Source: Microbacterium forte
GTDB taxonomy: Bacteria; Actinomycetota; Actinomycetes; Actinomycetales; Microbacteriaceae
Assembly (NCBI RefSeq): GCF_031885415.1
Contig: NZ_CP116871.1
Span: forward strand, 434,001-498,000
Direction of reading: 5' to 3'
Length of the DNA stretch: 64,000 nucleotides
In this document: positions 17,381 to 28,690 of the stretch, piece by piece
Position numbering within the stretch: position 1 is the stretch's first letter
Layout: every line of letters begins with the position of its first letter
Program-made: the position numbers and the translations under genes
Notes under the pieces: generated by a model
What the model was told of the DNA's origin: nothing
Database searches by the model: none
Seen by the model: only the letters and a program-made list of their open reading frames with translations

Positions 17381-17925
17381 CGACGCCCTCCGAGCCGTGG
17401 GAGGACGCCGGCGAATTCGCCGGCGTCCCCGACGAGTTCCAGCGGCTGTGGACCCCGCACCGGATGGCGTACATCCAGGCGGGCCCGGAGCCGCTGCGCG
17501 AGGAGTGCCCGTTCTGCAAGGCTCCGAAGTTCCCGGATGCCGAGCGGCTCATCGTGGCACGGGGCGAGACGGCCTACGTGCTGCTCAACCTGTTCCCCTA
17601 CAACTCGGGGCACCTTCTGGTCTGCCCGTATCGCCACATCGCGACCTACGACCAGGCGACGCCCGAAGAGGTCGCCGAGATCGGTGCGCTGACCCAGATG
17701 GGCATGCGCGTACTCCGAGAGGTGTCACGCTGCGACGGCTTCAACCTCGGGATGAACCAGGGCGCCGTCGCGGGCGCCGGCGTCGACGGACACCTGCACC
17801 AGCACATCGTGCCGCGATGGACGTCGGACGCCAACTTCTTCCCGATCATCGCGAAGACCAAGGCGCTGCCACAGCTGCTCGGCGAGGTACGCGAGGCCGT
17901 GGCAGACGCCTGGCCGAAGGCCTAG
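17377..17925 (+). CDS. HIT domain nucleotide hydrolase/transferase
   Basis: 182 residues. The histidine triad [10 protein letters not shown] (His-phi-His-phi-His-phi-phi with a Trp) is at about residue 140. CPFCK near residue 46 together with the conserved RHIATYD suggests the AP4A phosphorylase-like HIT branch found in Actinobacteria, which cleaves dinucleoside polyphosphates. It is translationally coupled to thrS (GTGA overlap). That link fits: aminoacyl-tRNA synthetases make AP4A as a side product. The exact substrate is inference. Converges with pdxY with a 6-base gap. Confidence 0.9.
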
Positions 17926-17931
17926 CGCGGG

Positions 17932-18783
17932 TCAGCGCACCTGACGCGCGGTGAACTGCATGCGCGGGTTCGCATAGAACTCCTGCGCCTCGACGAGCTG
18001 CAGTTCGCGCGCACCGGACTCGAGGGTCGCCGCGAGCAGGTCGAACACGCTGGATGCCGTGCGCTCGAGCGCCGTCTTGGCGTCGCCCGTCGCGACGTAG
18101 TGCGCCGTGAACAGGGCCGCGGTCACGTCACCCGAGCCGTTGGCCTTCATCGGCAGGCGTGGCGTCTGCACGATCCAGGCGCCGGTCGGGTCGGCGACGA
18201 GCATCTCGATGGTGCCCTCTTCGCGGTCGGGGCGCTCGACGCTCGTGACGAGCACCGTGCGCGGTCCCATCGCCATCGCCAGGTCGACCGACGTCAGAGT
18301 GGACTCCAGCGTGTCGGGCTCGGTGTCAGTGAGGAAGCCGAGCTCGAACTGGTTCGGCGTGATGATGTCGGCAGCCGGCACGACCTTCTCGCGCAGGAGG
18401 ATCGGGATGGCCGGTGCGACGAAGCATCCGGACTTCGCGTTGCCCATGACCGGGTCGCACGCGTACACGGCGTCGGGGTTGGCGGCCTTGACCCGCGCGA
18501 CGGCGTCGATGATCACGTCTCCGATGCCCTCGCCGCCCTGATACCCGCTGAGCACCGCATCGATCTCGCCGAAGACGCCGCGTTCCTCGATGCCTGTGAT
18601 GACCTCACGCACGTCGTTCGGATCGATCAACGGGCCGCGCCAGGCGCCGTAGCCGGTGTGGTTCGAGAAGTTCACCGTGTAGACCGGGAGCACCTCGACG
18701 CCGATGCGCTGCAGAGGGAAGACTGCGGCGGAGTTTCCGACATGGCCGTACGCGACGGCGGACTGGATGGAGAGGATCTTCAT
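17932..18783 (-). CDS. pdxY: Pyridoxal kinase (PdxY type)
   Basis: 283 residues of the ribokinase/PfkB-like fold. Phosphorylates pyridoxal to PLP in salvage. Visible motifs: GHVGNSAAVFPLQRIGVEV, the substrate loop SNHTGYGAWRG, YACDPVMGN, and ANGSGDVTAALF with the catalytic Asp in GSGD. It lies 46 bases downstream of the PdxR-like regulator on the same strand, and the regulator is divergent from pdxST, so salvage and de novo PLP synthesis genes form one cluster, probably with shared control. Confidence 0.95.
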   Translation of the reverse strand: MKILSIQSAVAYGHVGNSAAVFPLQRIGVEVLPVYTVNFSNHTGYGAWRGPLIDPNDVREVITGIEERGVFGEIDAVLSGYQGGEGIGDVIIDAVARVKAANPDAVYACDPVMGNAKSGCFVAPAIPILLREKVVPAADIITPNQFELGFLTDTEPDTLESTLTSVDLAMAMGPRTVLVTSVERPDREEGTIEMLVADPTGAWIVQTPRLPMKANGSGDVTAALFTAHYVATGDAKTALERTASSVFDLLAATLESGARELQLVEAQEFYANPRMQFTARQVR

Positions 18784-18829
18784 TCTCCGATCCTTTCAGT
18801 GAGGGCGGGAAGGATCCCGCGGCGGGTGT

Positions 18830-20249: not shown

Positions 20250-21143
20250 ATGACCGAACAGCCCACCACCGGATCCTCGCGCGTCAAGCGCGGTCTCGCC
20301 GAGATGCTCAAGGGCGGGGTGATCATGGACGTCGTCACCGCAGATCAGGCGAAGATCGCCGAGGACGCCGGCGCCGTCGCCGTGATGGCCCTCGAACGGG
20401 TTCCCGCCGACATCCGCGCCCAGGGCGGAGTGTCGCGGATGAGCGACCCCGACATGATCGACAGCATCATCGCCTCGGTCTCGATCCCCGTGATGGCCAA
20501 GGCCCGGATCGGTCACTTCGTCGAGGCGCAGGTGCTGCAGGAGCTCGGCGTCGACTACATCGACGAGTCCGAGGTGCTGTCGCCCGCCGACTACGTGAAC
20601 CACATCGACAAGCACGGCTTCGACGTGCCGTTCGTCTGCGGTGCCACGAACCTCGGTGAGGCACTCCGCCGGATCAACGAGGGTGCGGCCATGATCCGTT
20701 CCAAGGGCGAGGCCGGCACCGGCGATGTCTCCGAGGCGATGAAGCACATCCGCAAGATCCGCGGCGAGATCGCCGCGCTCACCGCGCTGCCCAAGGACGA
20801 GCTGTTCGTCGCCGCCAAGGAGCTGCAGGCGCCGTACGAGCTCGTCGCCGAGATCGCCGAGACGGGCAAGCTCCCCGTCGTGCTCTTCGTCGCCGGCGGC
20901 GTGGCCACGCCTGCGGATGCCGCCATGATGATGCAGCTGGGCGCCGACGGCGTGTTCGTCGGCTCCGGGATCTTCAAGTCGGGCAACCCCGTCGAGCGCG
21001 CGAAGGCGATCGTCAAGGCGACCACGTTCTTCGATGACGCGAAGGTCATCGCCGAGGCCTCGCGCGGCCTCGGAGAGGCGATGGTCGGCATCAACGTCTC
21101 CGACCTCCCCGCACCGCACCGCCTGGCCGAGCGTGGCTGGTAG
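20250..21143 (+). CDS. pdxS: Pyridoxal 5'-phosphate synthase lyase subunit PdxS
   Basis: 297 residues, the usual length. With PdxT it makes PLP from ribose 5-phosphate, glyceraldehyde 3-phosphate and glutamine-derived ammonia. The TIM barrel motifs are clear: [32 protein letters not shown] with the ribose-binding Lys, [23 protein letters not shown], and [18 protein letters not shown] with VGSGIF. AGGAG lies 6-8 bases before the ATG. Its last 11 bases overlap pdxT. Confidence 0.98.
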
Positions 21144-21735
21144 ACCCGCAGTCGGCGTGCTGGCCCTGCAGGGCGACGTGCGTGAGCACGCCGCCCTGCT
21201 GGCCGGGCTCGGTGCCGACGTCGTCCTCGTGCGGCGCCCCGAGGAGCTCGCCGCCGTGAGCGGCCTCGTGATCCCCGGTGGCGAGTCCAGCGTGATCGAC
21301 AAGCTCTCGCGCACCTTCGGGATGCAGGAGCCGATCCGTGCCGCGATCAGCGCCGGGCTTCCCGCGTATGGAACATGTGCGGGGCTGATCCTCCTCGCAG
21401 ACGAGGTGCTCGACGGCATCGACGGGCAGCAGTCGTTCGGCGGTATGGACATCGCCGTCCGCCGCAATGCCTTCGGGCGTCAGACGGAGTCATTCGAGAT
21501 GTCGCTCGATCTTCCGGTGCTCGGCGAGCCCCCTGTGCACGCGACCTTCATCCGCGCTCCGATCGTGGAGCGGGTCGGTCCTGATGTGGAAGTGCTCGCC
21601 ACGCTGCCCGACGGCGGGATCGTCGCGGTGCAGCATGGGTCGCTGCTCGGCACCAGTTTTCATCCCGAGGTCGACGGTGAGACGCGCTTCCACGAGATGT
21701 TCCTCGAGCGGGTCCGAGATCGCAGCGGTCGATGA
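21133..21735 (+). CDS. pdxT: Pyridoxal 5'-phosphate synthase glutaminase subunit PdxT
   Basis: 200 residues from GTG 21133, overlapping pdxS by 11 bases. Supplies ammonia to PdxS from glutamine. Class I amidotransferase motifs: [23 protein letters not shown], the nucleophile in [11 protein letters not shown] and the His/Glu of [10 protein letters not shown]. No obvious Shine-Dalgarno, fitting translational coupling to pdxS. The jetABC operon begins 75 bases later behind its own -10 box. Confidence 0.96.
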
Positions 21736-21809
21736 CATCGATCCAGGGCGACCCGCCATGCACCAGCGCATGACAGGCCGTGGTCCCAGGTCGGACTAGT
21801 CTCTTTCGA

Positions 21810-23273
21810 GTGACTGGATCCAGGGCTGAGACCGCGTACGCGCGTGCCATCACCGCATTCAGCACCCCGACACTCGATCTTCTCCACGGCCGATTCGCTC
21901 CGTTCGTCGTCGCGTCGCTCACCCTTCTGTTCAACGCCGACCGGGCATCGGTCGCGGTGGCGGATGCGCATGCCGAGCTGGCCGAGGTGCTGGATGAGCT
22001 CCGCGCGGCGGGCTACGACGACGACGACAGAAGACTGCCGTCCGGCAGCGGACGTGACGTCTGCCGCAACTGGGTGCGCCTGGGCTGGCTTATCCAGCAG
22101 ATCGACGACGACATCGAGGTCTATCGCCTGTCGGCGCACGCCGTCGCGGCGCTCGAGATATCCGGGCGCACCGGCGGCGGGCGAACGCGAGTGTCGAACT
22201 CGCGTGTGCGCACCCTGCTCGATGCCGTGGAGCATCTCTCGGTGAGCGCGGAGGTCGACCCGGTTCGTCGCCTCTCCCGGCTGCAGGCGGAGCGCGACGT
22301 CATCGATGCGGAGATCGCTCGCATCCAGGACTCCGGACGCGCGGAGCCTGCGGATGACGAGGAACTCCTCGAGGAGGCGGAGAACGTCCTTCATCTGGCG
22401 CGCGAGCTCCCCGCCGACTTCACGAGGGTCGCCGAGTCGCTCAGAGCGATGCAGCGCGACGTCGTCGCCCACCTCCGGAGGGACGAGCGGCCGACGAGCG
22501 AGGTGCTGCGCGAGTATCTCCAGCGCGCCCAGGACGTGATGCAGTCGACCCCGGAGGGTCGTGCCTTCGCAGGTGCCCTGCGTCTGATCGGCGACCCCGA
22601 GCGCATCGACGCCCTCACTGAGCAGCTCCGCGGACTCCTCGACCAGCCGTTCGCGCGCATGCTCGACGGCACACAGCGTGCCGAGCTCGATGCGATCGCG
22701 CGACGCGTGGAGCTGGGGGTGGAGGAGGTGCTGGCCGCACAGCGCCGCGCCTCGCATGTCATCACCGGGCAGGTGAAGACCCACGACCCGTTGCGTGACC
22801 GTCAGATCGACGACCTCCTCCGCGACGTCATCGCAGGACTCCACGGGTGGTCGGGTCCGGCCGCGGTGGTCGATCCTGTGCGCAGCATGCCGCTCGCCGA
22901 CCTCGGGCATCTCCGTCAGACGACCAGCGACATCCGCCCGCCGCGAGCTCCGGCCCCGCTCACGGACGCCGACGACGTCGACTTCCTCGATCACGACACG
23001 CGTGCGTGGGGTGGTCCGAGGTATGCCGAGCTCGAGGAGTACGTCGCCGGTCTCGGCGCGCAGTTCGATCTCGCCGAGGCGTTCCGGGCGGTGCCCGACG
23101 CGGCTCGACGCCCGGTCGATCTCCTCGGCCTGCTCGAGATCGCCCACCGCAACGGCCTCGCGGACGGCGACGGGATCTCGACGGTGGAAGCGCTGAGGCC
23201 TGACGGGACGACGCGCCGCTTCGCCTTCGGCGCCGTGATCGCCCGCAGCACGAAAGAGGATGCAGATGAGTGA
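21810..23273 (+). CDS. jetA: JetA/MksF: DUF3375 kleisin-like subunit of a MukBEF-type condensin
   Basis: 487 residues from GTG 21810. Matches DUF3375: N-terminal winged-helix region (AYARAITAFSTPTLDLLH, then FAPFVVASLTLLFN), the LRRDERPTSEVLREYLQRAQ middle and a C-terminal block RYAELEEYVAG. In Wadjet (JetABCD) this is the kleisin, analogous to MukF. TAGTCT (21797-21802) is 7 bases before the GTG and no Shine-Dalgarno is visible, so the operon mRNA is probably leaderless. It overlaps jetB by 8 bases. Confidence 0.9.
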   Translation: MTGSRAETAYARAITAFSTPTLDLLHGRFAPFVVASLTLLFNADRASVAVADAHAELAEVLDELRAAGYDDDDRRLPSGSGRDVCRNWVRLGWLIQQIDDDIEVYRLSAHAVAALEISGRTGGGRTRVSNSRVRTLLDAVEHLSVSAEVDPVRRLSRLQAERDVIDAEIARIQDSGRAEPADDEELLEEAENVLHLARELPADFTRVAESLRAMQRDVVAHLRRDERPTSEVLREYLQRAQDVMQSTPEGRAFAGALRLIGDPERIDALTEQLRGLLDQPFARMLDGTQRAELDAIARRVELGVEEVLAAQRRASHVITGQVKTHDPLRDRQIDDLLRDVIAGLHGWSGPAAVVDPVRSMPLADLGHLRQTTSDIRPPRAPAPLTDADDVDFLDHDTRAWGGPRYAELEEYVAGLGAQFDLAEAFRAVPDAARRPVDLLGLLEIAHRNGLADGDGISTVEALRPDGTTRRFAFGAVIARSTKEDADE

Positions 23274-23925
23274 CGACGACCTCACCACGGCGGTCGCCGA
23301 CGAGGGGTTCATAGCCCCCACGGCGATGGAGGACGACCTCGAGGCGCACTTCCCGGGTGACCGCGGCACGCTCGACCCCGAGATCAGACGTGTGCTCGTG
23401 CACCTTCTGCAGCGCCGCTTCATCTCGATGGAGCGCAACCGGCGCGAGTGGACGCTGCTGATCGAGCACCAGCACGTCATCGAGTCGCGGCTCAACGACA
23501 TCTACCTGCGGCTGATCATCGATCACGCACGCGGATTCGCCTACAAGCAGCAGTTGCGCTCCGATGAGGTCGAGATGCCGGTCCTGCTGAAGGATTCGCC
23601 GTACTCGCGGGCCGAGACGCTGGTGCTGGTGCACCTGCGAACCGTCTACCAGCGCGAGTCGGCGTCCGGCGAGGGATCCGTGCGGATCGACATCGAGGAC
23701 GTCGAGCAGACCGTCCTCAGCTACTTCGCCGACACCGACGGCGGAACCGCCAAGCAGCAGAGGGCGATCCGCAGCGCACTGGACCGACTGGACCGAGAGG
23801 GCATCGTGCAGGAGGAGACCAGCGGGCGGTATCGGATCACCGCGCTCGTCGAGGTGGTGCTCAGCGCTGAGACGCTCAAGGGGCTGCGGGAGTGGCTGCG
23901 AGCCCAGGCGGTGGTGGCGCGATGA
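23266..23925 (+). CDS. jetB: JetB/MksE: DUF4194 subunit of the condensin
   Basis: 219 residues. DUF4194 family, the MukE-like winged-helix partner that binds the kleisin. Visible features: LVHLLQRRFISMERNRREW, a block around LNDIYLRLIIDHARGFAYK, a LVLVHLRTVYQRE helix and a C-terminal winged-helix segment QRAIRSALDRLDREGIVQE followed by YRITALVEVVL. ATG 23266 has AGAGG 7 bases upstream; an in-frame ATG at 23260 is less well placed. ATGA overlap with jetC indicates tight coupling of all three subunits. Confidence 0.9.
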   Translation: MSDDDLTTAVADEGFIAPTAMEDDLEAHFPGDRGTLDPEIRRVLVHLLQRRFISMERNRREWTLLIEHQHVIESRLNDIYLRLIIDHARGFAYKQQLRSDEVEMPVLLKDSPYSRAETLVLVHLRTVYQRESASGEGSVRIDIEDVEQTVLSYFADTDGGTAKQQRAIRSALDRLDREGIVQEETSGRYRITALVEVVLSAETLKGLREWLRAQAVVAR

Positions 23926-26900
23926 CGATGATGGACACGCTCTTCGGGATGATCCCCGCGAGCTCCCGCGGCCAGCAGTGGGTGGCCGAGGAGCTGCAGC
24001 TCATCAACTGGGGCGGATACGACGGGGGGCCGCACCGGGTGCGGTTCTCGCCGGATGCGACCCTGCTGTGCGGTGGGTCGGGGTCTGGAAAATCCACGCT
24101 CATGGACGGCTACATCGCCCTGATGATGCCGCACACGACGCCGTTCAACGGCGCCTCGAACGGCGGTGTCACGGGGCGTCCGCGGGGCGATGAGCAGCGC
24201 AACATCCTGTCGTACGGGCGCGGCAAGATCGACGAGTCCCGAACGGACGAGGGCACGAAGCTCCGGGTGCTGCGCGGTGACGGCGAGGACACCTGGAGCG
24301 CCGTCTCGATGACCTGGTTGGATCACGACGGATCGCGCTTCACGGCGGTGCGCGCGTGGTACATCCCTGCGGACGCCCGCACTCTCGAGGACACCACGAG
24401 AGTGCGAGCCACGGTCGACGGCGCATTCGACCTCGCGCAGCTGGAGCGCGCCGCGACTCACCGCCTCACCGACACGTCGGTGCGAGCCGTCGGACTCGAC
24501 CCCGTCGCGACCGACCGCGAGTTCTCGGCCCGGCTGTACGCCGTGCTCGGCATCGGAGCGGCCGGCTCCGGGGCGAAGGCGATCAGTCTTCTCGCCCGCA
24601 TCCAGGCGGGGCAGCAGATCACCACGGTGGACGATCTGTACAAGAAGCTCGTGCTCGAGGAGCCCGAGACGATGGCGACCGCGGACGCGGTGGTCGCTCA
24701 CTTCGACGAACTGGAGAGCACACGCACGCGGATGCTGGTCGCCAAGCAGCAGGTGGCGGCTCTCGAGCCGATCCGCGGGATATCCCGGCGCATCGAGGAG
24801 GCATCGGAGCGGATGCGGGTCGTGGACGAGGTCGGGGTCTTCTCCGAGTCGACCTCGCTCGCGGCTCTCTGGAGCGCAGAGCGTCGTCTCGACCTGCTGC
24901 GCGGAGTGGAGGCGGATCTCCGCGACCGAACCCACGCGCTCCAGCTGGCCGTGCGCGAGAAGAACGCCCTCATCGCCGCCGCGGACAGCGAGCGCGAGGG
25001 TCTTCTGGACGTCCTGCGGCAATCCGGAGGCGATCGCCTCGAGACCGCCCAGCGCGAACTGCGCGGCGTCGAGCGCCGTCTCGAAGATGTCCGGCGTGAG
25101 CGGTCCCGTTTCGACGCCGTCGCCGGCGAGCTCGGCATCGAGGTGCACGACGCGGTCGCGTTCGAGAGCCTGCTGACCCGTATCGGACGGGAGCTCCCGC
25201 AGGCAGGGATCCGAGGCGCACGCGCGGCATTCGCCGACGCCGAGTCCGCTCGCAGAGCCGTGGAGACCGAACTCGCGCAGGTGCGTGCCGAGCGGGACCG
25301 CTCCCGAGACCTGCGGGGGAGCATCCCGGCACATCTGCATGAATCGAGAGTCCTGCTCGCTCAGGCCGCCGGGCTCGCCCCGACGGATCTGCCGTTCGTC
25401 GGCGAGCTGATCGAAGTGCGCACCGAGTTCGAGCCCTGGCGGGAAGCATTCAACCTGGCGCTCGGCGGGTTCGCACGGACACTGCTCATCGACGTCTCGA
25501 ACCTCGGACGATTCCGCGCGGCCATCGACTCGGTGCGCACCACGGAGCGGATCAGCTACGAGGGAGTGCACACCGGTCTCGCCGAGTCGCGGCCGGCCGA
25601 CCCGAGAACGCTTCCGGGTCGACTCGAGCATCGATCGACGCCTTTCACCGGGTGGCTCCAGCAGCGACTCCGCGAGCGGTTCGAATACGTCTGCGTCGAT
25701 TCCTCGGCCGAGCTCGCCGAGCATTCTCGCGCGTTGACGATCACGGGACAGGTGTCGCAGGGCGACCGGGGGTTCCACGGCGGGCATGGCCGCGCGAACC
25801 TGCTCGGATTCTCGAACGCACGCCGTCTGCGTGAACTCGACGAGCAGGTCGCCGAGCTCGAGATCCGACGGGATGCCGCATCCTCGGCGGCTGCCGAAGC
25901 GGAGGCGGACCTGGACCGGATCGAGGCCACCGCGAAGGCGCACGCGAAGATCGAGGATCTCACCTGGGAGCAGATCGACGTCGAGGCCGTCGAGGCGGAG
26001 CGTGCGCGCTGGCTCACGGTCGAGGCGGAGGTCACCGTCGAGAACCCGAAGATCGCCGAGTTGCGTTCGCAGGCCGAGGAACTCAGGAAACGGGCGGGCC
26101 GTCTGCGTGACGAGAGCGCCCGTCTCGGGGGCGACCTGACGCTCGCTCAGGACCGTTGGGTCGAAGTGACGGACCAGGTCGACGCCTCTCAGCGGATCGT
26201 CGATGCGGCGGAGGCGGCGGAGATCGCGCTCGAGGAGCGGCACCGTTCCTTCCTCGACGCGCGTTTCCTCGGTGCGGAGGCTTCCGTCAGCGTCACGGCG
26301 TCCGAGCGACTCGCCCATCTCGACTCCGCGTTGCGCACCGCCGCGACCAGGCTGCTCGAGGACCGCACGTCGGCGGCCACGGCGCACGCCGAGCAGCGCG
26401 AGCAGATGCGACGCCTGATGACCGGGTTCCTCGAGCGCTGGGACACCCTCACGATCCTGCCCGACCCCGACGAGTCGGTCGCGGAGTTCGAGGGGATCCT
26501 CGATGCGCTGGAGACCAACGGCCTGCACGAGCTGGAGTCCGAGTGGCGGGACAGCCTTCTCAAGCTCTCCGGAAACGATCTGACGAGTCTGGACTCGACG
26601 CTCGGGCGCGCGCTGCGTGAGATCAAGAATCGCATCGACCCGATCAACCGGATCATGGAGGAGCTGCCGTTCTACGACGACGAGCACCGCCTCCAGATCA
26701 CGCCGCGCGAGAATCAGTCGGAAGCGCGCAGACGATTCCGCAAGGAGCTGCGCGAGGTGCGCGGCCTCATCGACACGGCGGGGACGGACGCCGACCGTGA
26801 GAGCGTCTACCGGAGGATGAGTCGTCTCATCGCTCGGATGCGGCGGACGGCGCCGGACTTCGCCGAGCTCATCGACGTGCGCAACCATGTGCGGGTGAGT

Positions 26901-27281
26901 GCGGAGCGGATCCATGCCACGACCCGGGAGCACGTCGCGCTCTACGACCACATCGGTGAGAAATCAGGGGGCGAGTCGCAGGAGCTCGTCGCGTTCATCG
27001 TGGGCGCCGCGCTGCGATACCAACTCGGCGACGCGGGAGCCGAGCGTCCCCGCTACGCGCCGGTGTTCATGGACGAGGCCCTGATCAAGGCGGATGCGCA
27101 CTTCACGAAACGTGCGATCGGCGCGTGGCGGGGTCTCGGCTTCCAGCTCGTGATCGGAGCGCCGAACGACAAGTACAGCGCGATCGAACCGCACGTCGAC
27201 GTGGAGTACGACATCCTGAAGGACACCCGCGGTCGCTCCTGGGCTCGTCCGAAGGTGGGCCTGCCGGCCGGGGGCGAGTGA
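23922..27281 (+). CDS. jetC: JetC/MksB: SMC-like ATPase of the MukBEF/Wadjet type
   Basis: 1119 residues. Head motifs are complete: Walker A CGGSGSGKSTL near residue 53, signature KSGGESQELVAF near 1020 and Walker B PVFMDEALIKAD near 1052. Long charged coiled-coil arms flank a hinge-like centre around DLPFVGELIEV and LGGFARTLLIDVSNL (about 490-530). In Wadjet systems JetC extrudes plasmid DNA loops with JetA and JetB, and JetD cuts. Here jetD is missing from the operon: the next gene, 29 bases on, is convergent. The complex could act as a chromosome-folding MksBEF without a nuclease, or use a JetD encoded elsewhere. All active-site motifs are intact, so it is not decaying. Confidence 0.92.
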   Translation: MTMMDTLFGMIPASSRGQQWVAEELQLINWGGYDGGPHRVRFSPDATLLCGGSGSGKSTLMDGYIALMMPHTTPFNGASNGGVTGRPRGDEQRNILSYGRGKIDESRTDEGTKLRVLRGDGEDTWSAVSMTWLDHDGSRFTAVRAWYIPADARTLEDTTRVRATVDGAFDLAQLERAATHRLTDTSVRAVGLDPVATDREFSARLYAVLGIGAAGSGAKAISLLARIQAGQQITTVDDLYKKLVLEEPETMATADAVVAHFDELESTRTRMLVAKQQVAALEPIRGISRRIEEASERMRVVDEVGVFSESTSLAALWSAERRLDLLRGVEADLRDRTHALQLAVREKNALIAAADSEREGLLDVLRQSGGDRLETAQRELRGVERRLEDVRRERSRFDAVAGELGIEVHDAVAFESLLTRIGRELPQAGIRGARAAFADAESARRAVETELAQVRAERDRSRDLRGSIPAHLHESRVLLAQAAGLAPTDLPFVGELIEVRTEFEPWREAFNLALGGFARTLLIDVSNLGRFRAAIDSVRTTERISYEGVHTGLAESRPADPRTLPGRLEHRSTPFTGWLQQRLRERFEYVCVDSSAELAEHSRALTITGQVSQGDRGFHGGHGRANLLGFSNARRLRELDEQVAELEIRRDAASSAAAEAEADLDRIEATAKAHAKIEDLTWEQIDVEAVEAERARWLTVEAEVTVENPKIAELRSQAEELRKRAGRLRDESARLGGDLTLAQDRWVEVTDQVDASQRIVDAAEAAEIALEERHRSFLDARFLGAEASVSVTASERLAHLDSALRTAATRLLEDRTSAATAHAEQREQMRRLMTGFLERWDTLTILPDPDESVAEFEGILDALETNGLHELESEWRDSLLKLSGNDLTSLDSTLGRALREIKNRIDPINRIMEELPFYDDEHRLQITPRENQSEARRRFRKELREVRGLIDTAGTDADRESVYRRMSRLIARMRRTAPDFAELIDVRNHVRVSAERIHATTREHVALYDHIGEKSGGESQELVAFIVGAALRYQLGDAGAERPRYAPVFMDEALIKADAHFTKRAIGAWRGLGFQLVIGAPNDKYSAIEPHVDVEYDILKDTRGRSWARPKVGLPAGGE

Positions 27282-27310: not shown

Positions 27311-28690
27311 TCAGCCCGACACGAGTGTTCGGATCGCGCCGACTGTGCGATCGATGTCGTCTCGGGTCGTCGCCCAGGACGACATCGAGCATCGCAGCGC
27401 CGCGCGACCACGCCACGCGGCGCCTGTCAGGGCAGCTGTGCCCTCGGCGAGCACGGCCTCGCCGAGGGCTCGCGTCGCCTCGTCGGAGTCGAGTCGGAAC
27501 ATCACCTGGGTGTAGTCGACGTCGTTGAGGATGCGGATGCCGTCGACCGAGGCGAGTCCGGATGCCATCGCCATGGCGTTCTCATGCAGTGCGTCGATGA
27601 GACGCGCGATTCCCTGGCGCCCGAGGCTGCGCATCGCCGCCCAGGCGGGCACGCCTCTGGCCCGCCTGGAGAGCTCCGGAGTGACATCCCAGGGATCGAG
27701 GCTCGTGAAGACGAGATAGTCACCGCCGGTGCGGAACGCGGCGATCGAGTCTGCAGGATCGCGGACGATCGCCATTCCGCAGTCGTACGGAGCATTGAGG
27801 GTCTTGTGCGCATCCGTCGCCCAGGAATCAGCCAGACCCATCCCCTCGGTCAGGGGGCGAAGCGAGGGCGACGCCGCGGCCCACAGCCCGAACGCGCCGT
27901 CGACATGCACCCACGCACCGTGGTCGTGCGCGATCGGGATGAGCGCGGCGAAGTCGTCGAACGCACCGGTGTGCACCTCGCCCGCCTGAAGGCAGACGAT
28001 GAGCGGCCCCGTGGCCTGACTGAGGGCGTGCTCGAGGGCCTCGGGTCTCATGCGCCCCTGGTCATCCGATTCGATCACGACCAGCTCGTCGGTTCCTATC
28101 CCGAGGAATCGAGCCGCCCGATCGATCGAGCCATGGCGATCGGCGCCGACGACGAATCTCACGGCGGGTGCGAGCCGAAGCCCCCTCTCCGAGAGATTCC
28201 AGCCGCTTCGTGCGAGAACGGCGTTGCGCGCTGTCGCCAAGCACGTGAAGTTCGCCATCTGGCCGCCCGTGACGAAACCGACGCTCGCGCTCTCAGGCAG
28301 TCCGAACAGGTCGAGCATCCACTGTCCGGCGATGCGCTCCATCGCGACCGTCGTCGGGGTGAGGGTCGCCGACCCCGAGTTCTGGTCCCAGGTCGACACC
28401 AGCCAGTCTGCGGCGAGAGCGGCGGGGTGGGTGCCTCCGATCACGAACCCGAAGAAGCGGCCTCCCGGAATCGCGACGAGGCCCGGATCACCCCGTCGTG
28501 CCATCTCCTCGATCACGCTCGCGGCATCCGTGCCCTCCTCGGGCAACGGACCCCCGAACGCCGACATCATCTCGTCGAGGCTCGCCCGCGGCCACACGGG
28601 TCTCTCGTCGAGCGACCCGAGAAAGTCGATTGCTGCGCGGTGTGCGGCTTCGAGGCCGCGGGTTCTGTCATCGACGGCTCTTTCGTCCAT
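27311..28690 (-). CDS. Group II PLP-dependent decarboxylase-like protein
   Basis: 459 residues, similar to aromatic amino acid / glutamate decarboxylases. The PLP lysine is in WATDAHKTLNAPYD; GGRFFGFVIGGTHPAALAAD and TGGQMANFTCLATARN are typical of the family, and VHVDGAFGLWAAASP carries the PLP-ring Asp. Substrate cannot be fixed; this actinobacterial branch is mostly uncharacterised. It converges on jetC with a 29-base gap, occupying the place where jetD usually lies. Base composition is like its neighbours, so there is no direct sign of recent transfer. Confidence 0.88.
   Translation of the reverse strand: MDERAVDDRTRGLEAAHRAAIDFLGSLDERPVWPRASLDEMMSAFGGPLPEEGTDAASVIEEMARRGDPGLVAIPGGRFFGFVIGGTHPAALAADWLVSTWDQNSGSATLTPTTVAMERIAGQWMLDLFGLPESASVGFVTGGQMANFTCLATARNAVLARSGWNLSERGLRLAPAVRFVVGADRHGSIDRAARFLGIGTDELVVIESDDQGRMRPEALEHALSQATGPLIVCLQAGEVHTGAFDDFAALIPIAHDHGAWVHVDGAFGLWAAASPSLRPLTEGMGLADSWATDAHKTLNAPYDCGMAIVRDPADSIAAFRTGGDYLVFTSLDPWDVTPELSRRARGVPAWAAMRSLGRQGIARLIDALHENAMAMASGLASVDGIRILNDVDYTQVMFRLDSDEATRALGEAVLAEGTAALTGAAWRGRAALRCSMSSWATTRDDIDRTVGAIRTLVSG

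Follow-up and report, generated by a model that had tools for sequence, protein, structure and literature searches.

The 64,000-nucleotide stretch of Microbacterium forte contig NZ_CP116871.1 analyzed here (positions 434,001 to 498,000; hereafter, the window) carries a three-gene operon, jetABC, that encodes the kleisin, KITE and ATPase subunits of a type I Wadjet system but not its nuclease, JetD. Sequence comparisons suggest that the operon specifies a Wadjet-derived, nuclease-free three-subunit complex of the structural maintenance of chromosomes (SMC) kind, which probably acts alongside the canonical Smc as an accessory condensin. They further support the view that, as a rule, jetD was lost from this subfamily while jetA, jetB and jetC were held under purifying selection. 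Loci are designated below by L numbers and genomes by G numbers, with G000 being the host. The features of the operon are as follows.

21810..23273, + strand: jetA, kleisin (DUF3375); PF11855, E=4.8e-107; PADLOC PDLC00464 JetA1, 705 bits, E=9.9e-213
23266..23925, + strand: jetB, KITE protein (DUF4194/MksE-like); PF13835, E=1.2e-38; PF21980 MksE, E=3.9e-10; PADLOC PDLC00473 JetB1
23308-23361, + strand: JetB N-terminal segment, F-I-x-P..M-E-x-D..F-x-G-D
23922..27281, + strand: jetC, SMC-like ATPase starting at ATG; PF13555 AAA_29 and PF13558 SbcC_Walker_B; PADLOC PDLC00517 JetC1, 1655 bits
27282..27310, no strand: gap of 29 bases from the jetC stop to a convergent gene, at the position where jetD starts in JetD+ relatives

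All three genes lie on the + strand with overlapping ends (jetA with jetB, and jetB with jetC through ATGA). The jetA start is the GTG at 21810, a further in-frame GTG lying upstream at 21780; the jetB open reading frame (ORF) runs 23260-23925, and relatives suggest a start at 23266. ORFs, Pfam and PADLOC confirmed what an earlier, sequence-only reading had described, namely an overlapping operon at 21810-27281 with a convergent decarboxylase gene 29 bases on. JetC carries GGSGSGKST, SGGE, YAPVFMDE and ALIKAD, which we take to be its Walker A, signature, Walker B and D-loop motifs, respectively. Of the components that define type I Wadjet, the JetA kleisin, the JetB KITE protein and the JetC ATPase with intact motifs were found, but the JetD TOPRIM nuclease (DUF3322/DUF2220) was not. 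The locus also has the make-up of an MksBEF-type condensin: kleisin, KITE and SMC genes share one nuclease-free operon, and JetB shows kinship with the MksE family (PF21980, 40.8 bits against a cut-off of 27), weaker than its match to DUF4194 (132.9 bits). The host genome also encodes Smc (838 bits) and ScpA (141 bits).

The absence of jetD from operon and window, noted in the sequence-only reading, extends to the whole genome. G000 (one contig of 3,753,259 bases, completeness 100) yielded no match to PF09983, none to PF11795 (9 of 9 candidates scored), and none to a profile of 11 JetD proteins from the window's own subfamily (6 of 20 first-look candidates scored, so that second copies may be missed). 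The two Pfam searches both matched in C. glutamicum, which served as a positive control. In a genus sample of 295 genomes, G000 included, a JetD_C match lay no more than 3 kb away from 32 of the 33 distant JetC places (<33% identity to the window; two of them, G200 and G423, are fragments), the sole exception being G422, where it lies on another contig; together with the control, this indicates that JetD is detected when present. The window subfamily (at least 54% JetC identity) was present in 99 of the 295 genomes. Own-locus jetD occurred in two of these (G249 and G190) and remnants in two (G347 and G200), and 87 had no full-length JetD_C match anywhere, short fragments being seen in three of the 87.

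A full-length JetD_C did lie elsewhere in ten of the 99 genomes, in nine of them beside another JetC. These cases, like the conserved N-terminus of JetB, speak for a split system of the kind allowed by the sequence-only reading, whose nuclease, be it JetD or another, would act in trans from a different place in the genome. We consider this improbable, given the negative searches in G000 and in the 87 relatives. JetD was not enriched in subfamily genomes, its frequency being alike in these 99 and in the remaining 196 (Fisher p=1.0, or 0.70 with own-locus cases excluded), and neighbor analysis (discussed later) revealed no shared gene. Nor did these searches find a jetD co-conserved with the operon elsewhere in the genome, a finding that the same reading had named as one that would count against it.

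Second JetC copies drew our attention in their own right; because the genus scan scored two candidates per genome, their counts are lower bounds. A second JetC group (33-39% identity to the window) had an adjacent JetD in only 2 of 10 places, the genomes lacking it being G366, G205, G186, G181, G323, G394, G343 and G209. At L224 (G396), a JetD-less jetABC has another Wadjet close downstream, one that possesses both a JetC and a JetD; its jetD, at 17653-18786 of the oriented locus, starts ~6.3 kb past the JetD-less jetC stop.

Since the N-terminal segment of JetB is near-invariant whether or not JetD is present, JetD is probably not its partner, or at least not the sole one. Loss of a JetD dock was considered as well, and this motif is conserved in both groups. 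In sliding windows, mean conservation was 0.06 to 0.09 lower in JetD-less rows, a difference confounded by phylogeny, as are the largest drops, of 0.20 (JetA 348-360), 0.20 (JetB 6-20) and 0.23 (JetC 419-432). JetB 6-20 is a variable stretch before and into the N-terminal motif.

The direction of change was examined in 159 loci, comprising the best 80 of 126 relatives, 78 of 105 further places (27 duplicates dropped), and the window. JetC was full-length in 149 of them, 24 with an intact jetD and 125 without; the remaining ten were contig-end pieces (L037, L245, L248, L251, L254, L255 and L256), L250 and L252 (both with JetC in two frames) and the partial locus L253. In a quick LG+G4 tree of 145 rows (98% dereplication, no bootstraps, L250 and L253 not included), the sister clade, whose members include Actinomadura, Nocardia, Actinoplanes, Microbispora and others, has jetD directly 3' of jetC in 21 of 28 rows. 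The window clade (Microbacterium, Tessaracoccus, Leucobacter, Corynebacterium, Gulosibacter, a Herbiconiux metagenome-assembled genome (MAG), a Propionibacterium MAG and further genera) comprises 117 rows, of which 3 have jetD, 1 has a broken jetD and 113 have none. The jetD start overlaps the jetC stop as ATGA or GTGA in 22 of the 25 JetD+ loci (the others being L055, L078 and L250). Pairwise identities of JetD and JetC are closely correlated (r=0.974 over 24 JetD+ rows; 0 of 2000 permutations as high), indicating that the two genes travelled together and that jetD is probably ancestral. If regain is disallowed, the tree implies 16 losses of jetD, ten of them in the window clade, or 23 if the broken jetD of L021 is counted as presence, although counts from so quick a tree may shift. 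Thus, jetD appears to be ancestral in the subfamily and to have been lost while jetABC was kept; in the line of the window itself, the support for this is phylogenetic.

To look for physical traces of the loss, we translated the sequence from the overlap at the jetC stop onward and scored it for likeness to the N-terminus of JetD, with 15,481 random positions as the null. The test covered 130 loci lacking an intact jetD, among them near-copies as well as L021 and L253, whose remnants were already known. Six of the 130 loci carried remnants at p<0.001 (0.13 expected): L071, L077, L079, L253, L021 and L214; L039 gave p=0.003. In L013, L036 and L042 scoring began at a stop that lies beyond the true jetC stop, and by eye no jetD start was seen in their true downstream frames. 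One loss can be followed base by base: the JetCs of L214 and the JetD+ locus L211 (G249) are 95% identical, the first 32 bases past the jetC stop match, and bases 1046-1118 of L211 then match bases 46-118 of L214, revealing a 1000-base deletion inside the L214 jetD. L021, L047 and L200 have both flanks in common; L021 holds jetD in two separate broken pieces, and none was detected in L047 or L200, where the L021 flank from base 1033 resumes at base 1351 (other DNA between) and base 69, respectively. L250 (G190) is a mirror case: its jetD is intact and its JetC spans two reading frames, possibly through a sequencing error.

Phylogeny, co-divergence, remnants and the L214 deletion all support, as to origin, the suggestion of the sequence-only reading that this is a Wadjet that lost its weapon. 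The reverse course, in which jetD was never present in the window clade and its few JetD+ members gained it, would account for these being so few and scattered (3 of 117). We give it the least credence of all the explanations considered; it is at odds with the JetD-JetC correlation, and the physical remnants in several JetD-less clade members contradict it for those lineages.

After the loss of jetD, the rest of the operon appears to have been maintained. Among the 125 JetD-less JetCs, SGGE and ALIKAD are invariant, Walker A GGSGSGKST is found in 120 (five minor variants) and Walker B YAPVF[ML]DE in 124; no stop before residue 1110 occurs in any of the 149 full-length JetCs. In these 149 loci JetB is never absent, JetA is absent in three, all at contig ends, and JetA of L215 and JetB of L046 are cut, again at contig ends; in L244 and L260 JetB aligns in two pieces. 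The ratio of nonsynonymous to synonymous substitution (dN/dS), a rough NG86 estimate from pairs that are not independent, had a median of 0.096 for JetD-less pairs of 90-98% identity (314 pairs) and was 0.144 at 80-90% (288 pairs). Corresponding values for JetD+ rows, which are mostly of other genera, were 0.248 (7 pairs) and 0.221 (130 pairs), and the window compared with nine relatives gave 0.077-0.132.

Some copies of jetABC do decay. In L253 (G200), which lies far from the ends of its contig, jetA, jetB and the initial 40% of jetC could not be detected and most of jetD is gone; in L252 JetC is broken into two frames. Such members are what would be expected if the operon were a decaying remnant, jetD having gone first and jetABC being on its way out. 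As a general account this is very unlikely, in view of a dN/dS of ~0.1, ATPase motifs kept over large divergence, and JetA and JetB that, L244 and L260 aside, are missing or cut only at contig ends. The argument of the sequence-only reading that an intact JetC speaks against decay is upheld and now covers the subfamily.

Two flanking features define the site of the operon.

20250..21735, + strand: pdxS-pdxT, flanking housekeeping genes (from ORFs and synteny)
27311..28690, - strand: pyridoxal phosphate (PLP)-dependent decarboxylase (PF00282), convergent, ending at 27311; flanking, outside the system

Both flanks of this site, from pdxT to a decarboxylase-yebC-ruvC block, are common to 11 rows, including the window and a Herbiconiux MAG, and jetD is absent from all 11. 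The sequence-only reading had reasoned that its case would fail if relatives always lacked jetD at this locus and jetABC was never tied to defense; the first part holds for these rows, but the second does not, since the sister clade carries jetD and so ties the subfamily to Wadjet. We also noted that the Herbiconiux MAG locus L038, which nests among Microbacterium in the tree, has jetABC (JetC 76% identical) close to the site used in the window, with yebC on one side and a HIT-protein gene on the other; pdxS and pdxT were unmatched in that interval.

In 12 same-genus relatives, sampled over yebC stretches that end before the far side of the decarboxylase, the upstream neighbor of yebC was pdxT in four (L273, L275, L277 and L281; ~1 kb off in L276) and a relative of the decarboxylase in five (L270, L272, L278, L279 and L280); neither was matched within 1.5 kb in L271 and L274. 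The five genomes with the decarboxylase beside yebC (G150, G154, G157, G159 and G160) have no JetC match, and in G151 and G156 (L271 and L274) it lies >250 kb from the yebC site, indicating that the site is empty in these kin. In the window's group, then, jetABC looks like an insertion. Other groups use sites of their own, 21 cliques of shared flanks covering 70 of the 145 rows; single-linkage clustering had suggested one site common to 24 loci, but this cluster proved chained (upstream flank common to 138 of 276 pairs) and was discarded in favor of the cliques.

A shared replacement for jetD was not seen in two analyses of neighboring genes. When neighbor frames were clustered for 79 representatives (90% identity; 30 top families examined), the commonest family, jetC and jetD frames aside, occurred in 16 of the 79 loci, without a constant side or distance, and was rejected as a candidate; the one member inspected encodes an ABC transporter ATPase. 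A PADLOC and Pfam scan covered 127 of 130 neighbor proteins from 30 JetD-less representatives, with genes called by an ad hoc rule based on GC content at third codon positions (GC3) and three frames excluded (one from L039, one from L046 and a 2067-residue frame from L052). The top Pfam family matched 4 of the 127 proteins, and among 25 of 42 PADLOC families, including HEC-01A, AbiLi, AriA and DpdF, each matched at most two. Some JetD-less loci may nonetheless lie near defense genes. Among 72,556 plasmid records 15 gave a match, as did 1 among 50,697 phage records; identity was below 60% in every case, so the subfamily was not found in either collection. The phage match (MT835499.1:25760-28966, from human feces) is a JetC-like protein of 27.6% identity over 80% coverage.

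In the accounts cited here, a dimeric JetABC motor drives extrusion of the plasmid, at the end of which JetD is activated (PMC12647877), and in C. glutamicum the kleisin MksF links MksG (PMC10123090). We propose that a type I Wadjet (JetABCD) ancestor, with jetD overlapping the jetC stop, lost jetD many times independently, and that jetABC mostly stayed intact under purifying selection thereafter. The remaining complex would still assemble as a kleisin-KITE-SMC motor and extrude DNA loops with ATP, like Wadjet I JetABC; the end of extrusion would be uncoupled from cutting, and extrusion without cleavage is expected. That an intact motor persists without its cutter in many relatives suggests that the motor has a job of its own. 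Its most likely role would be that of an accessory condensin alongside canonical Smc, as for MksBEF in Pseudomonas aeruginosa. A review passage describes P. aeruginosa MksBEF as a likely product of JetD loss that contributes to chromosome organization and segregation (PMC10586767), and the nuclease-bearing MksBEFG of C. glutamicum is reported not to fold the chromosome (PMC7083940). Because the form without nuclease organizes the chromosome and the form with it does not, a chromosome-organizing condensin, another option of the sequence-only reading, is plausible and is our first choice.

Several points weigh against this choice. The patchy distribution, in 99 of 295 genus genomes and at many different loci, is more like that of a defense module than of a housekeeping condensin. 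The 29-base gap of the window bears no jetD scar (p=0.91), so jetD loss in its own line rests on phylogeny. The unbootstrapped tree, the non-independent dN/dS pairs and the broken copies at L253 and L252 must be added, as must the JetB N-terminus: if it is the JetD dock, its retention in JetD-less members needs another partner.

Because of this patchiness and mobility, the main rival is a non-cutting restraint of small circles, in which JetABC would recognize small circular DNA by its total extrusion and trap, compact or silence it, lowering plasmid copy number or expression. We regard this as possible, though clearly less likely than a chromosomal role. Beyond the patchy spread and many insertion sites, it can draw on the statement that shape and size sensing is conferred by JetABC rather than JetD (PMC10586767), and on the parallel drawn with Smc5/6 and its action on the circular DNA of hepatitis B virus (PMC7083940). 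Conversely, all four genes of a tested Wadjet are said to be necessary for defense (PMC11719660), jetD is called essential for plasmid cleavage (PMC12287153), and a chromosomal role would also be in keeping with the site being fixed in 11 rows.

Whichever role applies, the question raised is what benefit a cell draws from a Wadjet motor unable to cut. The proposed conversions to MksBEF and, tentatively, MukBEF are presumably old; here the same step appears to have been taken many times in one subfamily, in one case by a partial jetD deletion beside a close JetD+ sister, and such natural pairs make the conversion of an immune SMC complex directly testable. We tentatively entertain the idea that in Actinobacteria a Wadjet that cuts plasmids repeatedly becomes a motor without nuclease, maintained by selection, which holds small circles in check by trapping, compaction or silencing, as Smc5/6 does with episomes; if true, defense and plasmid tolerance could coexist.

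A nuclease-free relative of Wadjet is a known kind. According to the review passage, Wadjet is the proposed ancestor of MksBEF and, tentatively, of MukBEF, their lines having shed JetD (PMC10586767). That 'loss of JetD' excepted, no paper on Wadjet or Mks systems without JetD or MksG was found in full-text phrase searches of the open-licence literature, in which PMC11719660 was the one paper returned for Microbacterium with Wadjet; nor did we find there in print a repeated, physically traceable loss of jetD within one actinobacterial subfamily with jetABC under selection. In Table 6 of PMC11719660, in a part that carries no comment on JetD loss, a Wadjet of JetA, JetB and JetC only is tabulated for Paenarthrobacter lasiusi. 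This is likewise a JetD-less call in another actinobacterium; that genome, however, also has a complete type I system, and the likeness is one of gene content.

With type I Wadjet (JetABCD/MksBEFG/EptABCD), the window operon has in common the JetA1, JetB1 and JetC1 PADLOC families, the A-B-C order and the overlapping genes, and in sister-subfamily members jetD comes right after jetC; it differs in that no JetD nuclease was found in operon or genome. MukBEF, which we take to share its superfamily architecture with the window JetABC, differs in that PADLOC and Pfam group the window genes with JetABC and the host keeps Smc and ScpA. P. aeruginosa MksBEF is likewise a nuclease-free kleisin-KITE-SMC complex beside canonical Smc, although it belongs to another lineage. 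Compared with that system, the loss of jetD described here is repeated and can be traced inside one actinobacterial subfamily.

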